The notes beneath the pieces are model-generated. The model had not been told where the DNA came from and did not search any database. It saw only the letters and a program-made list of their open reading frames with translations. The translations under genes were made by a program, and so were the position numbers. From Limnoperna fortunei (Eukaryota; Mollusca; Bivalvia; Mytilida; Modiolidae), in contig OX104113.1 in the NCBI GenBank assembly GCA_944474755.1, positions 26,416,432-26,480,431 on the forward strand: a stretch of 64,000 nucleotides of DNA, given 5' to 3'. This document shows positions 23,801 through 29,800 of the stretch, piece after piece; the first letter of the stretch is position 1; every line of letters begins with the position of its first letter.

Positions 23801-26800
23801 GTTTTTTTTAATGTGAATTGGAAATTCAAGGTGGACACCACCACATGACTCAGTTTAACATAGAACCCTATGGTAAAAAGGTTTTAAAAGGCATGTCTAA
23901 AACCAGTTCATTTCAGACAAGTTAAACAGAGAACTCTATTTTCAAATGCCACCTTTGTTAAACTGCAAAGCTGATATAAGCCATATTGTATGGGAATGTT
24001 TATTTAATGGTTCTCTTAAAAGTTTATGTGTGCTTATTTGGTAAAAAACCATGATGACTGCAATGTGGGAATTAATTTGGAAACCTACAAGATAATGTTA
24101 AAATAGCTTCCTATCTGAAACTATTGAACCAGTTGAAACCAAACAGCAAGATTCATTGGGTGGTCCCAACTAAGATGTTATTTATGCCAGTAGAAAATTG
24201 AAAATTACAGAACAGTTTAACATCCGGGAAATGCCATCTTCACTTACATTTGTGTTTAAACCAGCTCTTCAAAGTAATTTGTTGAACTTGCTGTTACAGA
24301 TATGTATTAATAATTTGCACCTAATAGCAGTATTCTAGACCAATATTTTTTTATTTTTTATAGGTGTCTGGACAAAGATTTAGTATAAATGTGCCCCATA
24401 GGTTCAATATACACAGTTATAAAAGGCCGACTTTCTGTGATCACTGTGGCTCCTTATTGTATGGATTAATTAAACAAGGATTACAATGTGAAGGTTTGTA
24501 CATGTTTGGGATTTTCCGTCTAATTATTGTTTGATAATTGTTGAATAATTCAACATTATACAAAAATATATTAAGCCGTTAACAAGATTTCTTCTATGTA
24601 TTGGATCTCCACTCACACTTCTTCTGTCTTAGTAACACCTGTCCCTTCCATAAGTTTTAGCTCATTCTAAAATTATATCTAATACCACAATTATCAATTA
24701 AAGATGGTTGAAATACAATTCTGCTCAGTTTTCCTCTAAAATGTTTGTGTTGTTTTAATGTTTCTATGCACTTAATTATATTGTGCTTCTATTTTCTTCT
24801 TGTGAAAATTCATAAACTAAATATTGAATATTTTTTAAATCATTATTTCTATTGCATTTTCTGGGACCATACTGAGAGGGTTCAACCCAGCAGGTCCCAG
24901 ATTGGCAGTTACGGTAGACCTTCTCGTTGGGAGTTATCATATCATAGTACGGAAAGCCTGGCTGTGGACTGCAGTGGGTTATGTGTTTGGAGAATGCCAT
25001 GCTTCTTGCAAAAAAAGACTTATTTTTGTAGATTTGGAAAATGAAAAGGCTTATGTAGCTGCAACAAAAGGCTAAATATTCTGCCCCTACCCAAACACCA
25101 TATTTTTCTAGTGGCATTCAAAATTTTTGCCCTTTGGTCCATCTTTCCTAAATTGATTAATTGTTTGTAAACTTGTTCTTATTCTGAATATAGCTGAAAT
25201 AAAGCTGGCCATAAAGCAAACATCCAATCAATCAATCAATCAATTACATGTATAAAGATATCAGCTTAACAGTTAAGTTAAAATTATTTATATTACAGCA
25301 GTTTAAACTTAGGATGGTAAAAAATGTATATGATGATTAAAACAAGCATGTTTAGCTTTATATTTAAAAGACTTAATGGGAAGAAACTAATGCTTAAAAT
25401 TGTGTATCAATTGATGTCTATGGTATATTTTTCTGTAATTTATACATTTCTGTTTACACTGTAATTAACTAAGCAATGTCAAAATATATTAGTTGTTATT
25501 CTAGTAAGTCAAGGTTTAAAGGTCAAGGATTTTCACTGTAATTAATGTTAACCACAAAAAACCCACACTTTTCACTGACATTAGTTATGAGACAGGTATC
25601 AAATTTCTAGTACGCTGTAATGTGTGTACAGGATTTAGAAATTCTATAACGTCATGTAGGTGTACAAAACAGAAGAATGTGATATGTACGTAGTAAGGAC
25701 AGAAACCTGTCGTTATGCCGAGTAGAAACCTTATAATCTATTGATATTATTGGTGAAATGGCAAAGGTGGATCAGTTAAGCTCATGTTTTGATGTAATTA
25801 ACTAACAGACATTGGTTGACATGTGTTACTGCTAGATATATAGGTGACTGGGTCAAAGTACAAAAATCAATAACATATAGGGGAATCAATTGCGTATCTT
25901 AAATCACAATGTCAGAACTAAATCAATTTATGCTGAAAGCTATTAGAGTTGGACATGATGGGTTTATTTTTTTAATGATATTTGAAACCTTCAGTTATGT
26001 AATTGGTCAATTAAATCGAAAATATGGCCTGTTTTAAATTTTAAACTTAAAAAGTTATCTCTTTAAATCTTTTAATTGCTACCATGGCTATTAGATAAAT
26101 AATCATTTAATTAAAGTTCAATCATTAAATGTCAAGTTTTGTCACAAAACAGAATTTAAATAAAATACATTTCAGGGCATAATGTAAAAAGTCAGGAATT
26201 ACTTAGCACAAGCCATTTAAAATTTATATTACAGGAATGAGTTTGGTTATCTAAACATCAGTATATTGTATTCAATATTTAAATATTTAAATTTTTAATA
26301 TTTGCTCATTTATACTAATTGTGGCCTTGTAGTTGCCAAAACATGAAAAAACAAACAAAAGCTGCATGGATGCTTTAAAGACTACTAATCTAAAGCTTTT
26401 GGTTACTCTCACTGGAGCATATTAAGTATACATGCATGATAATTAGAATAGTTAGGTTATTTCCATTAAAAAAATCATTATCTTATATTTCTTTATTTTC
26501 AGTATGTAAAGTAAATGTTCACAAACGATGTCAAAAGAATGTAGCAAACAATTGTGGTATTAATACACGAGAAATGTCATTGCGTTTAAAGGAAGTAGGC
26601 ATAATAACTGGTGCTAGGAAAAAGGTTAGTCCACTTGCATCATATTTTCATCTTGGTTATTGGTTATTTTTCAGTATGTAAAATAAATGTTCACAAACGA
26701 TGTCAAAAGAATGTAGCAAACAATTGTGGTATTAATACACGAGAAATGGCAGAGATTTTGCAAGAACTAGGCATTACTACTGATAAGCATGGTACTAGGA

Positions 26801-29800
26801 AAAAGGTTAGTTAGTGTTGTCCTCTTGCTTCATTTTCAATTTGTGTGTGTTTTCTCAATTTTGCCATAATAAAAACCTTTTTGCTTCATTTACCATTTTT
26901 AATCAGATTTCAACACAATATATCCACTGTTGCAGCATTTTCTTCCTTGCACTCACCTTTTTGCACTTCAAAATACTTTATTAGAACATGTAGACAGCTA
27001 ACCATAAAACATGACAAATAACATAGCACTCTAAGCACTTGTATCCAAAAACTGACTTGTTTGTTCTTTGTTTTACATGGAATGGAATAATCTGCCTTCG
27101 AAGGAGGGGGTATACTGCTTTACTGACATCTGTCCGTTCATTTGTTTGTCTGTTTGTTGTCTGTAACAAAAAATTCCATTGCAATTTTCTAAGCAGCAAC
27201 TAAAGGATCTACTTTCTGTTTACCGAATACTTTTACTCTTGTTCCTCGATAACAAAAAATTCTGTTGCAGTTTTCTAAGCAATTAAAGGATGCAGAAGCC
27301 TGATAGTTCGCATATTGCTTTATTCTATAGTACCATATGGTGTATAACAATTTATGCTCTTTGGTTATCTACTACTTGTTGTTATGGAATACTTTTTGTG
27401 AAAGTGAGGGTATTACTAGTGAGAAATTTGCTCAAAGATTCACCTGTTTCATCTGTTTTTTTTTTAAATTGTCATTGGCTTTATATTTTTTCCATTTTGT
27501 ACAAAGGAACCATGAATATATTCATAATGAACATGCCATATACATAGTTATTACATAATATATATATTGCCTTTTTCCTATTGGCCTAAACCAATACACA
27601 TGACTTTCCATTTCCTACCATATTGGTTTGCAAAAAACTCATTCTACTCAATAAAAAACCATATTGCACTCTCGTGAGAAATTTATGAATGAAAATACCT
27701 AGCACGTGCTGTTTCCCCCAACGGAAATATGATAGCCAATCAAATCTTCTTTCTTTAATCCCCTATACCAATCAAAATTATCGTTCTGACTGATGTTCGG
27801 ATTATATTGTTGTTTGTAAACATGGTAACTTTGTAACGTCATCGAGTGAACGTAATGCGGATAGTTCTGGTGCTAATAAGCGAAGATTTGCAGATTTTAC
27901 TAACTTGGAAATTAATGAAATCATTAAGAAAAAAGATGCTGTCAACACTCGCAAATCGAAAGAGCGATTATTTTTTTTCCAAATATTTACGTGAAACGGA
28001 TATGTCAGTTAATTAGGAAAAGGCGGACCCTCAGGAATTAGACTCAAATCTTTGTAAATTTTATGCATTAGCAAGGACTGAGAATTGGACATTATACAAG
28101 AAATAATCAATGCAAACATTTCGTCATGGATTATGTCGATATTTTACCGATTTTTGAGAAATAAATATTATGAAAGACAGTCACTTTCGGGAATAAAAAA
28201 AACTTATATATTTCATTTCATGACTCAATAAATTATGTAATAAAACAATTACTACACTCGAACTCGATCAATATGAGGTTTTTATGGAGCAGGGTAGAAT
28301 AATATTGAACTTGGCTTCGCCTCGTTCAATATTATTCTACCCTGCTCCATAAAACCTCTTATTGATCTCGTTCAAGTACAGTAATTGTATATTATTTTTT
28401 ATTCAACAATACATTCTTAGCTTTGTTGATGTAACTGGCCAGATTTCATGGAGTGAAAATCCGGGTTATAGTATGGTGAATTTTCGTAAGCAACTACTAA
28501 TCACATTCTCTTAAAATTTGGTATGCAGCATCAGCATGGCCTCCCATAATGTGGGATTTAATTTCAGGTCTGTCCCTCACCTACTTCATGTTATCTGACT
28601 TAGTTAATTTTTAACGAAATCCTGCCATTTCTGTCTTTGATCGATTTTTTTAATGTAATTTTTGTGTACCCACATGTTTCTTAAGATCTTAAATTATATC
28701 ATCTATTTAAGTTGAGCTTATTATCAGTCCATTGGTGCAATTTTTTAAAGTTAGTTAGTCATCTAATATTGATCATGTGGTCCGTCAGCACTGAGGTTGC
28801 AGGTTTGAGTCTCACTGCAATCAGGGTGTGCTCCACTCAAATCTTACTTGACAAGGATTGCCAGTTTTCCTACTGCAGGTTAGGGGATTAATCTGGGTAA
28901 TCCTGCTTCCTCCCCAATAAAAACTGGACACCATGATATAGCTGAAAAATTGCTGAAAGCGGCATTAAACACTATTCAGACAAACAATTATTATCAGTTC
29001 TTTGTTTTAGTTCATACATTATATATCAGAACATTTTTATATACATGTGCCACAATGGAAAGACTTGCTGTAAGTAATGAGTCATATGATATTTTTCTCC
29101 ATGTCTGAAAATCTTTGACATTTATTGGACGTTTTTAAGTTTGAATTTGATAAGGACATACGTAAGCCACTATAAAATGTATGAGGTTATGAAAAATCAA
29201 TGCTGTTGACAAATAATGGTTCTTGTAACAAGAAATAAAGATGCCTTTGAAACAGCTTTGTACTTCATTTACAAGCAGCGTTTCAAAAACCTTTTCTAAA
29301 TGGTTCTGTTTTCAAAGAACCAAAGACATTTGTAGTAGATTGTACAATTTTTGAAGTTTGGGATTTTTTATGTTCATTTTGCTTAGACCTTTTTCTTTTG
29401 ATTTAAACTGTTAAAAAAATAAAGAAAATGCAACAGAAAAAATGCTAAATAATGCATTATATCAAATATATATTTACGTATCCTTTTTGGAAGATTTTTT
29501 TTCCTTTATTTGCTGAAATTTTTCATTTGTAGAGCATTGTACATTTAATTTTATTATTTTAAACCCTTTTTGTTTCAATCAATTTAGATTTTAACCATCT
29601 GTGTTGTATGAATTTATAATGTAGGGTTTACATGATGACATATGGTATGCTGAACTTGACCTGATTATAATCCATGTAGAACTATGTATACATGTCATAA
29701 ATGTGTGGTAATTTAAAGTAAATAATTAAAGATTTGCAAATGATTAGCAACACTAGTATCCAATTAAAGGTTTTTTTTAATGTTTATTGCTTTCCAAAGG

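Follow-up and report, generated by a model that had tools for sequence, protein, structure and literature searches.

Exchange of duplicated exons is on record in several protein kinase C (PKC) genes, namely PRKCB, Drosophila Pkc53E and C. elegans pkc-2, in which tandem duplicated exons give alternative isoforms (PMC9741552). A similar arrangement was found in a 64,000-nucleotide stretch of contig OX104113.1 of the bivalve Limnoperna fortunei (hereafter, the window), where a PKC gene carries two tandem copies of exon 7, termed 7a and 7b. PRKCB, Pkc53E and pkc-2 encode conventional PKCs, and the exon choice of PRKCB lies at the C-terminus; unlike these, the 7a/7b pair belongs to an epsilon-type novel PKC of a mollusc and is located at the border between the C1B domain and the hinge. 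Mammalian PKC delta has splice variants with insertions in the V3 region. In both cases a novel PKC is changed in its hinge by splicing, but the delta variants involve no exchange of duplicated exons after C1B. Here, we propose, with a probability of roughly 0.85, that 7a and 7b are a mutually exclusive pair locked both sterically and by reading frame, that their C1B half has been conserved, in part by gene conversion, and that their tails have been kept distinct. An earlier note on this DNA knew of no described exclusive exon choice at this place in PKC epsilon, and we found none at this place in any PKC in the accessible parts of the literature searched, which was largely non-subscription. 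Tandem duplicated exclusive exons are well described as a mechanism class, and this PKC case is apparently undescribed.

The gene was rebuilt from protein motifs, splice sites and reading frames. It is complete, runs on the plus strand from 5537 to 51177 and consists of 16 exon segments. By Pfam analysis, the product has the domain order expected for a novel PKC of the epsilon type: C2, two C1, protein kinase and kinase C-terminal. Its C2 part matched 1gmi, the structure determined for this domain of PKC epsilon. Among the matches listed in a protein search, the nearest named relatives were 'calcium-independent protein kinase C' of Mytilus and other invertebrates. These sequence-based results supported the earlier assignment of the gene to the epsilon type of novel PKC. 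The part of C1B encoded by exon 6 contains the motif GSLLYGL, whose Tyr is nearly invariant among 38 aligned relatives. Mammalian novel PKCs have Trp at this position, which raises the affinity for diacylglycerol.

Direct reading and the rebuilt gene both gave two full versions of exon 7 lying head to tail, as described in the earlier note. TTTTCAG stands directly before each copy and GTTAGT directly after it; each is entered in phase 1 and left in phase 0, and has no internal stop. Their homology covers 125 nucleotides without a gap (86% identity, spacing of 172 nucleotides) and a further 22 nucleotides (95% identity, spacing of 181 nucleotides), so the likeness is not due to chance. No third copy of exon 7 was found in the window with 7a as the query: besides 7a and 7b, the search returned only C1A (E = 0.004), and all other hits had E >= 0.088. 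The full-length product was calculated as 722 amino acids with 7a alone and 725 with 7b alone. When 7a was joined to 7b, the product terminated as ...RKK-YVK-stop (TAT GTA AAA TAA) with the stop at codon 314; when both copies were skipped, it terminated as ...ASFMH-stop at codon 275, where the sixth codon of exon 8 reads TGA. The two stops bore out the claim that the reading frame forces the use of one copy only. The locus therefore shows the hallmarks of tandem-duplicated mutually exclusive exons, namely adjacent homologous exons with equal phases and open frames whose double or zero inclusion is unproductive. The zinc ligands encoded by exon 7 (C, H, C and C), assigned in the two products from the known ligand pattern, are the same in both isoforms. 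The placement of the pair inside C1B applies to the start of exon 7, whereas the coding differences lie past the last zinc ligand, in the segment behind C1B, save for Val/Ile at residue 273.

alpha-Tropomyosin is the type case of mutually exclusive exons based on steric interference. A human survey took a distance of less than 50 nucleotides as potential steric interference, which applied to 57 of 629 mutually exclusive exon clusters (PMC5740500). The entire intron between 7a and 7b is 50 nucleotides long, which places any branch point within about 50 nucleotides of the 7a donor. The predicted one, the A of the sole YTNAY match, is at position 26 from the 7a donor and 24 nucleotides before the acceptor; a further candidate A is at position 35, and another A is at position 42, just 8 nucleotides from the acceptor. 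Such an intron would be too short for joint use of the 7a donor and the predicted 7b branch point, and because of this, recognition of one copy would block the other, adding a steric lock to the frame lock. Unlike the alpha-tropomyosin-type and human steric clusters, the present pair lies in another gene and lineage and has a predicted branch point. Products with both copies or neither, carrying a frameshift and an early stop, would be expected from general knowledge to be destroyed by messenger RNA surveillance. The donors of 7a and 7b are identical, and the acceptors scored 10.1 for 7a and 3.0 for 7b on a rough scale built from the other introns of the gene. As the 7a acceptor scored higher, 7b is probably used only with the help of an active regulator. 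Another mechanism of exclusion considered was local RNA structure of the docking/selector type. It was unsupported by the fold of 26440-26880, which was not more stable than its shuffles (z = +1.91; 98 of 100 shuffles folded equally well or better). Rfam gave no match anywhere in the window at the gathering threshold.

Relatives were collected by protein searches. Residues 276-345 of the 7a protein gave 51 matches, and two additional searches gave 255 (120 of them listed) and 3; overall, 124 different proteins were listed, all comparable at the segment after C1B. A 7a-type tail was present in two of them, P0001 and P0003, and a 7b-like tail in the remaining 122. The two additional searches yielded no further 7a case among the matches listed (120 of 255, and 3). 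P0001, a protein of 488 residues from a 1982-nucleotide ENA contig of a close relative, has the sequence of exon 6 followed directly by 7a and then by exon 8. Its contig encodes without a break what in the window begins with exon 6 (24364), ends with the stop (51177) and covers approximately 27 kb, and we took it as a spliced message because exons spread over this distance are contiguous there. P0002, from a message-derived contig of 7485 nucleotides, has the 7b tail followed by exon 8, and 724 of its 725 residues are equal to the 7b product. The sole difference is Val for Ile at residue 273 (window 26683), and Val is the residue of 7a. P0002 represents either a 7b allele with the 7a base or a contig mixing reads of both exons; mixing of reads across the shared block would imply splicing of exon 6 to 7a in the species of the window as well. 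P0003 is the calcium-independent protein kinase C-like isoform X2 of Mytilus californianus, so that a 7a-type isoform is already present in automatic annotation, as a prediction. P0013 of Mytilus edulis has a 7b tail, and this predicted protein evidently contains errors in the region of C1B and V3. The identity to P0002 was 94% for P0001, 91% for P0003, 90% for P0013 and 82% for P0012 of Pecten, values that would put the window within Mytilidae or close to this family.

P0003 has the tail SVRLKDLGIIS at the place corresponding to that of window 7a, but differs from it in 4 of 25 residues of the C1B half and by an additional stretch after the exon. This stretch of 18 residues (NQVILKTVKDLTSSMEEK) follows the tail and precedes exon 8, and the window contained no convincing counterpart of it (best E = 0.15, at 54164). 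Sequence comparison showed that the tail of window 7a and those of P0001 and P0003 clearly form one family, and 7a is therefore older than the split of these three lineages. The earlier note had proposed looking for the same exon pair in other molluscs; 7a-type tails do occur in P0001 and P0003, but both copies within one gene were seen directly only in the window.

The three 7a tails keep the frame of a conserved segment and reverse its charge. In the numbering of P0003, position 297 is Ser in 7a and Ala in 116 of the 122 other proteins. Position 299 is Arg in all three 7a tails; in the others it is Ile, Leu, Val or Met (117 of 122), Glu (4) or Arg (1, P0010 of the annelid Owenia). Leu 300 and Gly 304 are retained in 7a, each being present in 121 of the 122 others. 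The net charge of residues 297-304 was +1 in all three 7a tails, and 0, -1, -2 and -3 in 16, 65, 40 and 1 of the others, respectively.

The copies have diverged unevenly. Their first 74 nucleotides contain one differing site and no synonymous difference, and the aligned tails differ at 13 of 48 sites with a 9-nucleotide gap set aside. The contrast was significant (Fisher p = 1.7e-5), and an equally long near-identical stretch arose in 5 of 20000 permutations; as C1B residues are conserved, this comparison of all differences is confounded by protein selection, which detracts from it as evidence for conversion. Synonymous changes, less subject to this confounding, numbered 0 over about 14.8 sites in the block and about 4 over 11.7 sites in the tail. 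With rounded counts, this gave a Fisher p = 0.028, a contrast tempered by its dependence on about 4 changes, only 2 of which are in codons for the same residue, the others coming from path averaging. The single differing site of the block, compared with the 13 of 48 counted for the tails, suggests at the sequence level that the C1B half was gene-converted in the lineage of the window while the tails were kept apart, which is the simplest reading. We considered it unlikely that the near-identity of the block instead reflects constraint on the DNA itself, such as codon choice or splicing enhancers. Such constraint would agree with the near invariance of C1B residues across the aligned relatives and with the modest synonymous contrast, but it would have to account for 25 codons free of synonymous change beside a tail with about 4. 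The same 25 residues were also free to change elsewhere, differing at 5 positions between 7a of Mytilus californianus and 7b of Mytilus edulis as compared with 1 within the window. This last comparison is open to the objection that the block residues of window 7a and P0001 7a are identical in all 25 positions, because of which the changes of Mytilus californianus may have arisen in Mytilus. Homology of the flanking introns beyond the exons was weak and was set aside as evidence: 89 of 2000 shuffles scored as well as the downstream flank, as did 49 of 2112 other windows, and 1357 of 2000 shuffles scored as well as the upstream flank.

Several points weigh against an exclusive pair with conserved C1B halves and distinct tails. 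The message of 7a type comes from a close relative only (P0001), and the message of this gene (P0002) is of 7b type; P0002 uses 7b although the rough score favours the 7a acceptor. P0001 could also be a retrocopy, in which a message has been copied back into genomic DNA, but this is less likely than a spliced message. The protein database was clustered at 90% identity, merging isoforms, and the absence of 7a elsewhere is thus weak evidence. The 122 comparison proteins are mutually related, many being from arthropods, and are not independent. Finally, AlphaFold2 models of P0003 (7a) and P0002 (7b), built with 38 aligned rows each, were both poor, with a mean predicted local distance difference test score (pLDDT) of 56.5 and 54.9; at this low confidence, a short helix was predicted at 293-302 in P0003 and at 291-300 in P0002.

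Some of these points would also fit a decaying 7a that is rarely or never used, with the protein made from 7b alone: the sole message-derived protein near-identical to this gene has the 7b tail, 7b-like tails prevail in 122 of the 124 listed relatives, and the 7a message is known from a close relative rather than from this species. However, the frame and both splice sites of 7a are intact, its donor equals that of 7b and its acceptor scores higher, and its tail is recognisably shared with P0001 and P0003, the former carrying it in a spliced message. We therefore regarded a decaying 7a as improbable. Still less probable is an artefact of assembly in which two haplotypes or paralogs were set in line. 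The variation of the block at residue 273 (Val in P0002 and 7a, Ile in window 7b) might hint at this, but the copies are joined by a 50-nucleotide intron with good splice-site sequences, their tails differ by 13 of 48 nucleotides plus the gap, too much for ordinary alleles, and relatives have either type: P0001 and Mytilus californianus carry 7a, whereas P0002 and Mytilus edulis carry 7b.

For the exclusive pair, we propose the following model of function. The C1B halves would be kept alike, including by recent gene conversion, so that both isoforms retain the diacylglycerol-sensing zinc fold. The tails would be kept different, 7b providing the common acidic segment and 7a a basic one with Arg at the conserved hydrophobic position. 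The choice of exon may then tune the interaction of the C1B sensor and hinge with acidic membrane lipid or with other parts of the kinase; the 7a tail might be drawn more strongly to such lipid, or bind the remainder of the kinase less tightly. More tentatively, and with some doubt, mussels may have evolved a switch in which gene conversion keeps the diacylglycerol-binding fold unchanged and only the charge of the segment behind it is exchanged, giving one novel PKC two set points of membrane binding or autoinhibition, the choice being controlled by tissue or stress. The locus offers a natural two-state comparison, in which the enzyme and its zinc finger are constant and the following segment is opposite in charge, with the exchange placed where the lipid sensor of a novel PKC meets its hinge.

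Table 1 Coordinates of the PKC gene segments and tandem arrays in the window.
Feature	Position	Strand	Remarks
Exons 1-2	5537-5878, 6082-6145	+	C2 domain (Pfam C2); start codon at 5537
Exons 3-5	18240-18396, 20893-20924, 22941-23023	+	Pseudosubstrate region and C1A
Exon 6	24364-24493	+	First part of C1B; donor in phase 1
Exon 7a	26503-26624	+	122 nucleotides; end of C1B and 16-residue tail; P0001 and P0003 carry a similar tail at this site
7a-7b intron	26625-26674	+	50 nucleotides
Exon 7b	26675-26805	+	131 nucleotides; end of C1B and 19-residue tail; tail type of P0002
Near-identical block of 74 nucleotides	26503-26576 (7a), 26675-26748 (7b)	+	73/74 identical
Exon 8	37276-37360	+	V3 hinge; after 7a in P0001, after 7b in P0002
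Exons 9-15	38577-38752, 41645-41818, 42644-42798, 46011-46149, 47363-47551, 50396-50545, 51007-51177	+	Rest of V3, kinase domain, C-terminal tail, stop
Tandem arrays	15424-15899, 31868-32336, 39097-39572, 43455-43895, 44375-45626, 49246-50223, 57776-58413		Units of ~130-170 bp; introns and 3' flank

The introns other than that between 7a and 7b were 203 to 12094 nucleotides in length. Intron 7 contains a long near-perfect palindrome (28245-28388), with arm pairs of 38 and 36 nucleotides that are 84% and 94% complementary; it is like a small hairpin-type mobile element. An open frame of 148 codons on the minus strand (60095-60541) had no significant Pfam match (best E = 0.099) and gave the impression of a retroelement piece. 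Related tandem units recurred at distant sites of the window: a 146-bp unit at 15.4 and 49.2 kb, and a 160-162-bp unit at 39.1 and 43.5 kb and, inverted as judged by eye, at 57.8 kb.

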